From assembly GCA_002716355.1 (NCBI GenBank), contig PBAU01000013.1, positions 1 through 49,507 of the forward strand: 49,507 nucleotides of DNA, in the 5' to 3' direction. A program made the position numbers and the translations under genes. Under the pieces are notes generated by a model that was given only the letters and a program-made list of their open reading frames with translations, was not told where the DNA came from and made no database searches. This document shows, piece after piece, positions 42,934 through 49,081 of this stretch (its first letter is position 1; each line of letters starts with the position of its first letter). The DNA comes from a bacterium. Lineage in GTDB: Bacteria > UBP7 > UBA6624.

Positions 42934-44346
42934 ATGGGAATCTTTTTAGCTGTTATTCTTGGAGTAGGGAATCTTTTCTCCAAAGAAAAAGAAGCAGTTG
43001 CTGAAGTCCAACCTCCATGGATAGAAATCAGGGGTGAACTTAAATTTGCAAATGATGCAAATCCAATACTGATAGAAAATGCAAAAATATTCCAAGGCGA
43101 AGGATTAGTTATTGAAAAAGGTTGGATTTTTTTAAAAGATCGACTTGTTCATTCGATTGGAGAGGGAAGCTTTGCTGGGGAAATTTATGATAATTTCACT
43201 ATTATCGATGCTGAAGGCAAATACATAACGCCTGGAATGATTGACATCCATTCTCATATGGGCGTATATGCCAATCCTGGACCAGCAGCACACAGTGATG
43301 GCAATGAGATGGTTAACCCTGTGACAGCTGGCATTGAAACCATACATGCATTTTGGCCACAAGATATAGCCATTGAAAGAGCTGTTGCTGGGGGCACAAC
43401 AACAATTCAGGTGCTTCCTGGTTCTGCAAACCTTATAGGTGGACGTGCTGCAACCCTGAAGCTACACCCAAGATTAACACCGCAGGATATGAGGTTTCCC
43501 GGAGCTAAAGATGGCCTAAAAATGGCATGTGGAGAAAATCCTAAAAGGGTTTATGGAGATAGGGGTGGCCCCCAAACAAGAATGGGCAACCTTTATCGCA
43601 ACAGACAGGTTTGGATCAATGCTGTTGAGTATTCAAAAAACTGGAAAAAATGGGAACAAGAATGGGAACAATGGAGCAAAAAACAACAAGGAGAAGAGCC
43701 AAATCCCCCCTCAAGAGATTTAACCATGGAGACCATGATGCTGTTAATGGACGGCGAAATTTTGGCTCAGGTTCATTGCTATAGGGCTGATGATCTGCTG
43801 CATATGATAGACCTGTCACATGAATTTAATTGGCATTTGAGGGTTTTCCATCACGCTATTGAATCGTACAAAATAAGAGATGTCTTGGCGAAAAACAATA
43901 CAGGCGTTGGTATTTGGGCAGACTGGTGGGGTTTCAAATATGAAGCATATGACGCTACAACGGCTGGACCAGGCTTGTCTCATGTTGAAGGCGTAAATGT
44001 AATTATTCATAGCGACAGTGCGATCGACATACAAAGGCTCAATCAGCGCGCAGCCCAAATCTATTATGAAGCTATTGAAAAAGGTTTAAACATAAAGGAA
44101 GAAGAGGCTATTGATTGGTTTACATACAATGCAGCTTGGGGTTTAGATATACATGAACAAACAGGAAGCTTGAAAGTTGGAAAAATGGCCGATTTGGTTA
44201 TATGGAGCCATCATCCTCTATCTATTCAAGCTTTGTCGGAAATGACAATCATAGATGGTGAAATAATGTGGGATATCACCAAAGGTTTCTCTAGTTGGAG
44301 TGATTTTGAAACAGGGCAATGGACATTTGACAGGAGTATGGAATGA
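42934..44346 (+). CDS. Exported amidohydrolase (metal ligands present)
   Basis: This 470-residue amidohydrolase has a short hydrophobic N-terminus. The metal site HSH is at DIHSHMG (His106, His108); further ligands are His281 (VHCYRADD), His306 or His307 (FHHA) and Asp361 (IHSDSAID). A C-terminal beta domain has KVGKMADLVIWSHHPL. Known family: cyclic-amide, imide or dipeptide hydrolases. The next gene, overlapping by ATGA, is a related protein without these ligands. Substrate unknown. Confidence 0.9.
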   Translation: MGIFLAVILGVGNLFSKEKEAVAEVQPPWIEIRGELKFANDANPILIENAKIFQGEGLVIEKGWIFLKDRLVHSIGEGSFAGEIYDNFTIIDAEGKYITPGMIDIHSHMGVYANPGPAAHSDGNEMVNPVTAGIETIHAFWPQDIAIERAVAGGTTTIQVLPGSANLIGGRAATLKLHPRLTPQDMRFPGAKDGLKMACGENPKRVYGDRGGPQTRMGNLYRNRQVWINAVEYSKNWKKWEQEWEQWSKKQQGEEPNPPSRDLTMETMMLLMDGEILAQVHCYRADDLLHMIDLSHEFNWHLRVFHHAIESYKIRDVLAKNNTGVGIWADWWGFKYEAYDATTAGPGLSHVEGVNVIIHSDSAIDIQRLNQRAAQIYYEAIEKGLNIKEEEAIDWFTYNAAWGLDIHEQTGSLKVGKMADLVIWSHHPLSIQALSEMTIIDGEIMWDITKGFSSWSDFETGQWTFDRSME

Positions 44347-45674
44347 ATGCTTTAATATTGCTATTTAGTTCTTTTTTTAATTTGACATGGATCTCTCAGG
44401 TCATTATGGAGTTTGAAAACAAAATTGCTATTCAGAATGTCGAAGCTTGGATTGGGACTGAAGAATGTGCAGGTGCTTCTTCTGGAAGATGTATCGAGAA
44501 AATTCCAAATGCAGTAATACTTATTAAAAACGGCCTTATCGAAAGTGTTTCTGAAAGCAGCCATGTTGGATGGCAGGAAAAAAACCCAGAAGGATATGTT
44601 GTCAAAGATGGACATGGGTTAATTGCGACTGTTGGATTTTTCGATATCGGTACATCAATAGGACTGCCTTCAATAAGCGGTTCTGATATTATGGATCTTG
44701 AATCCGTTCACAGTCATGGTCATTCCCATAACCATACAGCCTCTTCAGTAGCAGGCATACAAGAAGAAAGGGGGTTCGGTAAAAATAATATTGATGATTT
44801 CAAACCTGATGCAAGTCATGTCAAGTTAGCAAGAAGGGGCGGTGTGGCCTTGGCTTTAATAAGGGGAAGCGGCCTAAATGGAATTGTTTGCCTTTCAGAC
44901 AGCAAAAAAATTCCGGGGTATGCTGAAAAATGTAGTGATGTGCAGTCAATATCTCTTCCTTGGAATGGTGGCTCAAAAGGTAAAGAACTTTGGAAAAAAT
45001 GGAAAGAGGATGCTGACTTTTATATGAATAATTCAGAAAAATTCTCTATAGGTGAACTACACACACTATCCCTACCTTTTGAGGAGCTTGAAGTTCTTTC
45101 TAAAGCTTTTAACGGAGATATTCCTGTGTTTGTCTCGGTTTCTGATGCGAAATCAATTCTAGATGTAATAAAAATTGCTAAAGAATGGGGTATGAAACTA
45201 ATACTTCAAGGCGTACATGAAGGATGGGTAGTCGCTAAAGAGATTGCTGAAAGTCAATATTCTGTGCTGATAGACAGTGAGGCAAATCTTCTAGGTGGCT
45301 TTGATTCAATGGGAGCAACATTGAAAAATGGTCAGATAATGGCTGAACATGGGGTTAATGTTATTTTTTCTGCATTCAGCTCACACAACCTTCAAAGAAT
45401 TCGTTTTAAGGCTGGCATCGCTTGGGCAAATGGCTTATCTGAAGGTGATGCACTGGCAGCGATAACTGAAAATCCAGCTACTGCACTAGGGCTTAATGAC
45501 TATTCAGGAAAAATTGAAAAAGGCATGAGGGCAGATATAGCACTTTGGACAGATCATCCTTTTGAATACAAGGGTAGGCTGAACTCCTTGATGGTTGGCG
45601 GCAATTGGGTAGATCTAAAATCAAGACAAGACTACCTATTTGAAAAATACAGAGAACTGCCTGTTTACAAATAA
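44343..45674 (+). CDS. Degenerate amidohydrolase homologue
   Basis: This 443-residue protein matches its upstream neighbour in layout, with a start segment, an alpha/beta barrel and the C-terminal motif KGMRADIALWTDHPFE. The metal motif HxH is replaced by DIGTSIG (Gly103, Ser105), the later His position by SVSDAK and the Asp by SAFSSHN. A His-rich stretch HSHGHSHNH lies at residues 123-131. It is probably non-catalytic; the His-rich part could bind metal. The overlap suggests it is made with the active partner. Confidence 0.82.
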   Translation: MNALILLFSSFFNLTWISQVIMEFENKIAIQNVEAWIGTEECAGASSGRCIEKIPNAVILIKNGLIESVSESSHVGWQEKNPEGYVVKDGHGLIATVGFFDIGTSIGLPSISGSDIMDLESVHSHGHSHNHTASSVAGIQEERGFGKNNIDDFKPDASHVKLARRGGVALALIRGSGLNGIVCLSDSKKIPGYAEKCSDVQSISLPWNGGSKGKELWKKWKEDADFYMNNSEKFSIGELHTLSLPFEELEVLSKAFNGDIPVFVSVSDAKSILDVIKIAKEWGMKLILQGVHEGWVVAKEIAESQYSVLIDSEANLLGGFDSMGATLKNGQIMAEHGVNVIFSAFSSHNLQRIRFKAGIAWANGLSEGDALAAITENPATALGLNDYSGKIEKGMRADIALWTDHPFEYKGRLNSLMVGGNWVDLKSRQDYLFEKYRELPVYK

Positions 45675-45676
45675 AA

Positions 45677-47398
45677 CTAATCTTTTAGATTGAATTTAAA
45701 ACTAACAGATTTTGCTTTCTGTGCAGAAAAAATCATGTTTATCTTGCTGTTTCTCTTGCCCTCAACAAACATTGTTACCCATTTTTGGCCATATGAATCA
45801 ACATGTCCGATATGGGCACAATTGTCCCTGGTTTCAAACTGTGATGCAATTAAATGAAGATTGTGACCGGGTCTTAAATTCTTTTCTCTAGTTCCAGCAA
45901 TCGACAAATCGGCGCCTTCTAGACAAATCTTGTCAGAATGAGCATAACCACTTCTAACGCCTTGTGATGAAGCTGTTGGCATTGCTGATACGTTTTTCAA
46001 CTGGACATCAACCCTCCAAAGATTTCTGTCTATCTCAACAATCTCCATTTCTCCAAACTCAACCTTTGGCATGAATGAAGCATGCATAAGTGTGAATAAT
46101 GTATTCTGCATTGCCATATCAAAAAGCTCATCCGGTAAAGGCATCCTGGTACAAAAAGATTTCCAACCGCCTATTTCAATTTCACCAAGTTCTGGATGGT
46201 TATAAGGTTCCCAGTCAGCAAAACACGATCCGTGAGCAACTTCATCATTCCATTTCAATTTTTCTACCTGTGAAGAATACCCATCGCCATCATAATCAGG
46301 ATTGAAACTATACAACTCATTCGTAAAAGAAAAAATGCCCAATTCACCATATGTCCAATCAAAAAAACCGCCACTAACAGGGTAAAGCCCACTGTAAACC
46401 TCAAGATACTCATAATCAGGAAGAAAATTCTTAGCTCTTTCAGCCATAAAATCCATAACTCTTTTATCTTTTGAAGACAATCCTCTTTCGGAAGATTCCT
46501 TGGTGCCTGGAGGGCGCAAAATCATATCTCCTGCGTTGTGGTAGCTTTGCACAGCTGCAATATTTGGATGTTTACGAATAAAAGCAGCTGTCACATATGC
46601 TTCTGGTTCCGAAAGCATGTATGGACCTGCGCCATATTGCTTATGATCTGCAGCCCAATCCCAAGGCCACTGCCTGTTTAAATCTACACCTCCAAGGCCA
46701 TCTTCATTGATTGATCCATCAGAATCGTTATCAATGCCCTCCGTCCAGAAAACCTCCCATTCGCCATAGGCATCAAACTCCTTGCCATCCATCGCCCTGG
46801 AATCAATTGAGGATACCTGATTGCCGTAAATGCTTCTTCTTCTCATTTGCGTGATCTCACCATCTCCATTCAGGTCTTCAGGACCATCTTCGTCAAAATA
46901 ACCGTCTCTATCATTGTCAAAAGGTCTTATGTTCTGCCTTGGACTGTGTGGAGTGTTAGGTTCGTGAAAAAATCTATGCCGGCTATCCGGATTAACGGTT
47001 GGAGCAATATAAAAAGAATAATCATTTAATAACTGTGTTACCCATTCATCCTTGTTGAATCTTGTCACCAGATAATAAATTGTAAAAATTGAAATCTCAC
47101 TTCCCTGTATCTCATTGCCGTGTGTATTAGCGTCAATATACATTGCTGGCTTTGATGAATGCTCACCTGTTAAAGGATTATTTACTGTAACGACCCATAT
47201 ATCCCTGCCTTCACGACTTTTTCCCATAACATCAAGGGTCAAAAGCTCCGGGTAAGCATCTGTTAGATCTATCAATATATCCCTCATCTCCTCATAATCA
47301 TAATAAGTTGAAAAATCAATATTCACTTTGGGCTCAATTGTCCTTGGAGGAGTGAAAGCACATAGGGTAAAAATCAAAAAATACATAAAAAACTTCAT
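45677..47398 (-). CDS. Exported zinc carboxypeptidase, M14 family
   Basis: This 573-residue protein starts with a signal peptide (MKFFMYFLIFTLCAFTPPRT). M14 motifs are complete: His93 and Glu96 (NTHGNEIQG), Asn241-Arg242 (GVDLNRQWPW), His287 (SYHNAGD) and Glu361 (FTNELYSF). It also carries two EF-hand-like acidic loops, DNDRDGYFDEDG and DLNGDGEITQ, plus a third, DNDSDGSINEDG. A C-terminal beta domain follows. Known role: removal of C-terminal residues from peptides outside the cell. It overlaps the M14-like neighbour by TAATG. Confidence 0.92.
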   Translation of the reverse strand: MKFFMYFLIFTLCAFTPPRTIEPKVNIDFSTYYDYEEMRDILIDLTDAYPELLTLDVMGKSREGRDIWVVTVNNPLTGEHSSKPAMYIDANTHGNEIQGSEISIFTIYYLVTRFNKDEWVTQLLNDYSFYIAPTVNPDSRHRFFHEPNTPHSPRQNIRPFDNDRDGYFDEDGPEDLNGDGEITQMRRRSIYGNQVSSIDSRAMDGKEFDAYGEWEVFWTEGIDNDSDGSINEDGLGGVDLNRQWPWDWAADHKQYGAGPYMLSEPEAYVTAAFIRKHPNIAAVQSYHNAGDMILRPPGTKESSERGLSSKDKRVMDFMAERAKNFLPDYEYLEVYSGLYPVSGGFFDWTYGELGIFSFTNELYSFNPDYDGDGYSSQVEKLKWNDEVAHGSCFADWEPYNHPELGEIEIGGWKSFCTRMPLPDELFDMAMQNTLFTLMHASFMPKVEFGEMEIVEIDRNLWRVDVQLKNVSAMPTASSQGVRSGYAHSDKICLEGADLSIAGTREKNLRPGHNLHLIASQFETRDNCAHIGHVDSYGQKWVTMFVEGKRNSKINMIFSAQKAKSVSFKFNLKD

Positions 47399-48978
47399 TA
47401 TTTAATCTCCTTTGGGTCAATTGTTAAAGAATTGACAAACGACCTGGGGTGTGTTGGCGATACTTCAATTTTCTCTCTGCCTTTGATGACCCACTCCCAA
47501 GATCTGCTTTCTCCAGGTGCAAATGAACCTAAATTAATTTGCGGCAAGCCTACAACCAGCATTGAATCACTTTCAGGAAAACGAACCCAAACATTTGATG
47601 ATTCCCTGATTCGCGATGACATGTCTGAATCCGTACTCAACAAACCACTATTCCATACTCTCAATTTAACTTTTACAGTTTCTGAACCTAGCCTTTCAGA
47701 TTCCTCAATAGCTATATTGAGAATCGGCAATTCCCCAACCAAGGATTTCAGCCAACTATCGAGAATGCCTGTCAATCTTGTTTCGCCATCTGGAATCCTG
47801 CTTCTGCCATAAATTGGCCATCCTGAGGATTCTTCCCCCTCTTTGTAGCTTGTCCAATCCTGGTAACCAACAACATCAAACCATTCTTTTTCTGAAACCT
47901 GGTGCCATGCTTTTTCAAAAATTAACTCACCAGTTTCCTCATGCTCTTTTGGCAAGCCCCATAATCCAACAGAAACTGACCACCTGCCCAAACCCGCGTA
48001 AGCCCAATCCAAAAAATTTCCCTTCTTGGACCATGATTCAGGTCCATCTTTAGCCATGAAGAATGACTCATAAGGTGTTTGTTGTTTAAACCTTTCTCCA
48101 ATTGCCTCAAATATCTTCTTGTCTTTTTGAGGGGTTTTATCAGAAGATTCATTACTCATCGGATAAGCCATGCCTGCTCCTAGATCTCTAACGTTAACAA
48201 TAAATGCAACCTCAGGGGAAACCAGCAATTCATCTACAACAAACTTTACTTCACTCTCACTAACAGCAAAAGGGCCTCCGCCAGAATTGGAGTAGGGGAA
48301 CTGCCAGTTGTAAGGAAAATTCCTGTCCAATGAGATTCCTCCCAATCCATCCTCTCCGTATAAGCCATCTCCATCAGAGTCATCACCTTCAATGTCACGA
48401 AGTATCCATCCACCTTTCTCTCCTTTTACGAAGTCAGCTTTTTTCATTTTTGTTATTTCTAAATCGTCTTTTGACAATACTTCTTTCCATTCTCCCCAAG
48501 GCTTCTCTATTCTGACAGAACCAATCACTCCATCACCATTAAGGTCAAAAGGTGGATCTTCATCCTTGAATCCATCGCCATCATCATCCCAGGAAACACC
48601 ATTCCACGGGAACATTGCCGGAATGCCTGCAGCAAGCTTCAGGCCTGATGGGTTTAATCCTGGAATAGCCCTGAAGGTAACCCTGCTCAAAAGCTCAACA
48701 GCATCATCATCACCGTTTCTATAATCCTGATCAAGATTGATCATGAAATGCTCTATTGCAGCAACTGAATAAGGCTCATCGCCTCTCAATCCGCCTATAA
48801 GGAAAATAACGGGCTTTGAATCGTCTACGGGTAATCCTGAAACCTCCCAGAGATGACCCTCATCGCCTAATGAAGTCGTGAAACTTTTGGTAATCAGGCT
48901 TGGGGCAGATTCCAGATTCGCTTTGAGATCAAAACTGCTTGCAGTCAGAAAAAAAATAAAGATGAGTATTGTTTTCAT
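47398..48978 (-). CDS. M14-like protein with lost zinc ligands (pseudopeptidase)
   Basis: This 526-residue exported protein is colinear with the downstream M14 peptidase, but the zinc ligands are changed: GGLRGDEPYS replaces THGNEIQG (His93 to Arg65, Glu retained at 68), NVRDLG replaces SYHNAG (His287 to Arg264), and the catalytic Glu position is Gly. The substrate Asn-Arg pair is Asp218-Arg219. The EF-hand-like loops DDDGDGFKDED, DLNGDGVIG and DSDGDGLYGEDG are kept. It is probably a non-catalytic partner or binder. A tRNA-Pro gene ends 26 bp upstream. Confidence 0.82.
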   Translation of the reverse strand: MKTILIFIFFLTASSFDLKANLESAPSLITKSFTTSLGDEGHLWEVSGLPVDDSKPVIFLIGGLRGDEPYSVAAIEHFMINLDQDYRNGDDDAVELLSRVTFRAIPGLNPSGLKLAAGIPAMFPWNGVSWDDDGDGFKDEDPPFDLNGDGVIGSVRIEKPWGEWKEVLSKDDLEITKMKKADFVKGEKGGWILRDIEGDDSDGDGLYGEDGLGGISLDRNFPYNWQFPYSNSGGGPFAVSESEVKFVVDELLVSPEVAFIVNVRDLGAGMAYPMSNESSDKTPQKDKKIFEAIGERFKQQTPYESFFMAKDGPESWSKKGNFLDWAYAGLGRWSVSVGLWGLPKEHEETGELIFEKAWHQVSEKEWFDVVGYQDWTSYKEGEESSGWPIYGRSRIPDGETRLTGILDSWLKSLVGELPILNIAIEESERLGSETVKVKLRVWNSGLLSTDSDMSSRIRESSNVWVRFPESDSMLVVGLPQINLGSFAPGESRSWEWVIKGREKIEVSPTHPRSFVNSLTIDPKEIK

Positions 48979-49004: not shown

Positions 49005-49081
49005 TGGTCGGGACGAGAGGATTCGAACCTCCGACCTCTGCACCCCCAGCGCAGCGCGCTACCAGGCTGCGCTACATCCCG
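49005..49081 (-). tRNA. tRNA-Pro (anticodon GGG)
   Basis: Cloverleaf of 77 nt including encoded CCA: acceptor CGGGATG/CGTCCCG with one G-U pair, anticodon stem CTGCG/TGCAG, loop CTGGGGG with GGG, and GGTTCGAATCC T arm. CCA lies at 49005-49007 on the plus strand as TGG. It reads CCC and CCU. Confidence 0.97.

Follow-up and report, generated by a model that had tools for sequence, protein, structure and literature searches.

A candidate M14 pseudopeptidase encoded ahead of its active homologue: a possible two-component exported carboxypeptidase in bacteria

The window, by which we mean the whole stretch of 49,507 nucleotides that was analysed, comes from a 1.26 Mb genome bin that is 87% complete and whose nearest named relative is UBP7_UBA7824, itself metagenome-assembled. 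Two adjacent genes on its minus strand (Table 1) encode proteins that both match the Pfam profile Peptidase_M14 (PF00246, cut-off 21.6), the upstream protein with 47.7 bits (E 2e-12) and the downstream protein with 157.6 bits (E 7e-46), and 12/12 homologues of the upstream protein match the M14 profile as well. In addition, the upstream profile matches carboxypeptidase T with an E value of 5e-26, and both proteins match M14 only, the M16 fold with its HxxEH motif being absent. The stop of the first gene and the start of the second overlap in the junction ggagattaaaTAATGaag. The open reading frames, the Pfam matches and the junction agree with an earlier note on this DNA, which had described two exported M14-fold proteins overlapping by TAATG. 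Upstream of the pair, a tRNA-Pro gene (GGG; 49005-49081, minus strand) lies 26 bases ahead of the start of the pseudopeptidase gene. Convergent to the pair lie two genes (42934-45674, plus strand), both for amidohydrolases, the first with the metal motif HSH and the second without HxH. The two overlap by ATGA and repeat the live-plus-dead pattern; comparable amidohydrolases, in tandem or fused, occur in many genomes, and some second copies keep the HxH.

Table 1. Features of the M14 gene pair in the window. CPA numbering is given in brackets where residues were aligned to CPA.
Feature	Positions	Strand	Basis or remark
Upstream gene, exported putative M14 pseudopeptidase, 526 aa, N-terminal signal sequence	47398..48978	-	both zinc His and the catalytic Glu missing
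Downstream gene, canonical exported M14 zinc carboxypeptidase, 573 aa	45677..47398	-	all CPA catalytic residues
TAATG overlap of stop and start (translational coupling); ggag some 9 nt ahead of the ATG	47396..47400	-	sequence
R65, upstream protein, aligned with zinc ligand H69	48784..48786	-	alignment
R264, upstream protein, aligned with zinc ligand H196	48187..48189	-	alignment
G338, upstream protein, aligned with catalytic E270	47965..47967	-	alignment
ADxxKGE two-residue insertion, upstream protein, residues 181-187	48418..48438	-	alignment
HxxE zinc motif, canonical enzyme, H93 to E96 (H69, E72)	47111..47122	-	alignment to CPA
Third zinc ligand H287, canonical enzyme (H196)	46538..46540	-	alignment to CPA
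Catalytic E361, canonical enzyme (E270)	46316..46318	-	alignment to CPA
Acidic loop 1, upstream protein, residues 131-150 (DDDGDG..DED..DLNGDG), Ca-binding-like	48529..48588	-	conserved in both proteins
Acidic loop 2, upstream protein, residues 197-214 (EGDDSDGDGLYGEDGLGG)	48337..48390	-	conserved in both proteins
Acidic loop 1, canonical enzyme, residues 161-180	46859..46918	-	conserved in both proteins
Acidic loop 2, canonical enzyme, residues 220-237	46688..46741	-	conserved in both proteins

The downstream protein has the complete zinc site that had been read from the sequence earlier, including the catalytic Glu361, and its R154, N241, R242, Y339 and E361 correspond to R127, N144, R145, Y248 and E270 of CPA; it thus shares all zinc, substrate-binding and catalytic residues with M14 zinc carboxypeptidases such as carboxypeptidase T and CPA. 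Among the fetched loci, on which all residue tallies rest (71 canonical-clade and 76 upstream sequences), the full set of H69, E72, R127, N144, R145, H196, Y248 and E270 (HERNRHYE) is present in 71/71 canonical sequences. We infer from these residues that the downstream protein is a zinc exopeptidase cutting C-terminal residues. The preferred C-terminal residues are probably hydrophobic, as the position equivalent to CPA 255 is Phe in the enzyme of the window and, in 65 of the 71 relatives, is one of Leu, Ile, Val and Phe.

The upstream protein has lost this active site. The replacement of the catalytic Glu by Gly that the earlier note had reported was confirmed, with G338 at the E270 position. 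The claim that both His ligands had become Arg holds for the window itself and only partly beyond it: the upstream protein of the sister genus, at 49% identity, conserves Arg264 and Gly338 and has Gly instead of Arg65. Arginine does not seem to be a meaningful replacement either, as Glu or another residue usually stands there elsewhere. The zinc-ligand Glu, E68 in the motif RGDE, is kept in the window lineage. The histidines do not return in distant homologues either: H196 or E270 was found in 0/76 upstream sequences and more than one zinc ligand likewise in 0/76. At positions 93/96 the commonest state is Glu/His (28/76), a reversal of HxxE, and most upstream sequences have F[GS]xxDN in place of the third zinc ligand. 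The carboxylate clamp is largely, though not universally, kept, with Asn, Asp or Ser at 144 together with Arg or Lys at 145 in 59/76. The upstream protein can therefore be regarded as an M14 pseudopeptidase, namely a conserved homologue whose catalytic residues are lost and which is kept by selection.

Compared with carboxypeptidase T and CPA, both members of the pair add a C-terminal domain and two acidic loop insertions. The acidic loops to which the earlier note had drawn attention in the upstream protein are indeed present and conserved, but the canonical proteins conserve both DxDxDG loops just as well, which makes them a feature of this M14 subfamily. As a partner-specific surface they were ruled out.

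A profile search that sampled 290 genomes across the bacteria found tandem M14 pairs in unrelated families, after which the phyla of several positive groups were searched further. By a tally from the score tables, a full upstream-type match occurs in about 97/566 genomes from eight phylum-level groups (3/3, 24/247, 5/14, 24/200, 3/10, 2/4, 5/6 and 31/82 genomes per group), and the pair is present in 3/3 genomes of the phylum of the window. Recurrence in eight phylum-level groups is more than chance. In 57/57 scored pairs the two genes lie on the same strand with the dead gene first, the gap between them being mostly -4 to +13 nt, and both proteins have an N-terminal hydrophobic segment in 52/57, its absence from the other five being attributed to over-extended ORF starts. 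Genomes in which the two genes have come apart retain both of them, on different contigs in two cases (G480, G539) and a few kb apart in four (G748, G792, G793, G800), and in G793 and G800 the gene between them looks like htpG. Apparent canonical-only genomes were mostly set aside: 20 further unpaired M14 matches were fetched, of which 19 fall into other M14 subfamilies, the last being the canonical gene of G480, and in the remaining cases, G423 and G797, the locus ends at a contig edge. The exceptions are as follows. Besides a normal pair, genome G762 contains an orphan extra pseudo-copy with no canonical gene next to it (L223, 2728-4620, minus strand); in G404 (L135) the canonical gene is duplicated and the adjacent dead copy is broken into two reading frames; and in G799 (L232) the canonical gene itself carries a frame break. 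All three may reflect decay or assembly errors. No third neighbour conserved across phyla was found, so that the unit consists of these two genes. No copy of the pair was found in viral contigs, and the plasmid matches were weak and limited to the canonical protein. Given that the dead-then-live pair occurs in at least eight phyla, the two genes almost certainly form an ancient pseudopeptidase-peptidase unit, in which selection maintains the dead copy as a partner, as opposed to its being a broken gene.

We propose, with a probability of roughly two in three, that the two genes encode a single two-component exported carboxypeptidase, made of a live enzyme and a dedicated non-catalytic subunit that go back to a single ancient duplication. 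The downstream protein would act as the exopeptidase, and the upstream subunit, inherited together with it ever since that duplication, would be made first, be translationally coupled to the enzyme and most likely bind it after export. Once bound, the subunit might stabilise the enzyme, or it might dock peptide C-termini through a vestigial pocket that has mostly retained the carboxylate-binding Asn144/Arg145 pair but has lost both the metal site and the catalytic Glu. AlphaFold2 models of both proteins, made from two-row alignments, had a mean pLDDT of 29, too low to be informative. A bolder extension, which we offer tentatively, is that two-subunit M14 systems are widespread in bacteria and that the ancient dead subunit, with a pocket rebuilt around the Asn-Arg clamp and F[GS]xxDN, captures peptide C-termini and either hands them to the active subunit or gates it.

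The main rival to this two-component reading, which we judge rather unlikely, is that the upstream protein serves as a trans-acting inhibitor or folding chaperone, in the manner of the N-terminal prodomain of digestive M14 carboxypeptidases. That classical prodomain has about 95 residues, and the canonical proteins, which carry only about 50 residues before the catalytic domain, signal included, seem to lack it; the translation of the upstream protein before the enzyme in 57/57 scored pairs would also suit such a role. However, with a complete M14 fold and a C-terminal domain the upstream protein is not a small inhibitor, and many bacterial M14 enzymes function without a partner. It is improbable, too, that the upstream protein is an independent exported protein that binds peptides, glycans or cell wall and is merely co-regulated with the enzyme, with no complex between them. 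The eukaryotic pseudopeptidases AEBP1 and CPXM1/2 do bind collagen without an active partner (PMC11266112), but strict co-occurrence, fixed order and the persistence of both genes after separation suggest that the bacterial protein depends on its own enzyme.

The ancestry of the dead copies bears on a further alternative. In a tree built with the active-site columns removed, the canonical proteins form one clade (99/99) and the pseudo-copies another (95/93), and the best tree shows common ancestry of the pseudo-copies. The window lineage is basal in the canonical clade, and within the pseudo clade a long branch separates it from the rest. The mirror distances of the two proteins correlate with r = 0.88 over 56 pairs, a value that includes shared species history. 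The long branch, as well as an AU test that did not reject a sister relationship between the dead copy of the window and the canonical gene beside it (p 0.17), would fit a duplication that took place recently within this lineage, with an independent loss of the active site and a copy now in decay or of no more than local use. We nevertheless consider this very improbable: against profiles built without the window lineage, the dead copy scores 230 bits with the pseudo profile and 113 with the canonical one; it shares with the other pseudo-copies a two-residue insertion (Table 1) and a deletion around Tyr248, both absent from canonical and outgroup M14 proteins; and the dN/dS of its gene is 0.09. 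More generally, the pseudo-copies are under purifying selection, with dN/dS of 0.06-0.28 where dS could be estimated, mostly somewhat above the value of the canonical gene in the same pairs. The central claim of the earlier note, a selected non-catalytic partner instead of decay, is thus reinforced by histidines that are never regained, a fixed order, co-occurrence and purifying selection, and the upstream gene is not one that stands alone and decays quickly. As a separate observation, dS between two species (window 47398-48978 versus L007 2373-3953) is 0.16 in the pseudopeptidase gene and 0.61-0.73 in the three genes next to it, a difference suggestive of recent recombination across the pseudopeptidase gene. 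Finally, it is hardly probable at all that the upstream protein is itself catalytic through a remodelled active site, in which the reversed ExxH and the new Asp-Asn pair provide a new metal site or chemistry. Positions 93/96 vary widely (among others ED, KH, YQ, QQ and DT), and in the window lineage RxxE is found without the Asp-Asn pair, which makes a chemistry common to the pseudo clade unlikely.

The upstream protein of the proposed two-component system lacks the catalytic set of carboxypeptidase T and CPA, and in this it resembles the eukaryotic M14 pseudopeptidases, namely domain III of carboxypeptidase D (CPD), AEBP1, CPXM1, CPXM2 and Ecm14. M14 pseudopeptidases have been described in vertebrates, insects and yeast, and CPD domain III, an inactive domain linked to two active domains, has been proposed to present substrates (PMC11266112). 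The eukaryotic proteins are vertebrate, insect or fungal, whereas the dead copy reported here is a separate bacterial gene, always first and with an active partner of its own. The same pairing of active and inactive homologues in one operon is seen in MPP alpha/beta and bacterial M16B, where the inactive alpha subunit of MPP is essential and the bacterial homologues are encoded by a two-gene operon of one inactive and one active member (PMC11266112). M16B and MPP have an unrelated fold and endopeptidase activity, however, and complex formation is established there; for the present pair a heterodimer is proposed. By analogy, the upstream protein is most likely a non-catalytic subunit like MPP-alpha or CPD domain III. 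In the literature searched, whose coverage was incomplete and mostly lacked subscription journals and preprints, no description of bacterial M14 pseudopeptidases or of such paired systems was found.

The function of the vertebrate, insect and yeast M14 pseudopeptidases is hard to test. An obligate and ancient bacterial enzyme-pseudoenzyme pair would offer dozens of natural experiments in a small two-gene unit that is open to expression and knockout, and could thus make the idea of substrate presentation by CPD domain III directly testable. In addition, many genes annotated as zinc carboxypeptidase would not be enzymes. Apart from the pair, another M14 subfamily was encountered at L046, L051, L052, L056, L175, L184-L190, L193 and L194, in which HxxE and the catalytic Glu are kept and the third zinc-binding His is replaced by Asp.
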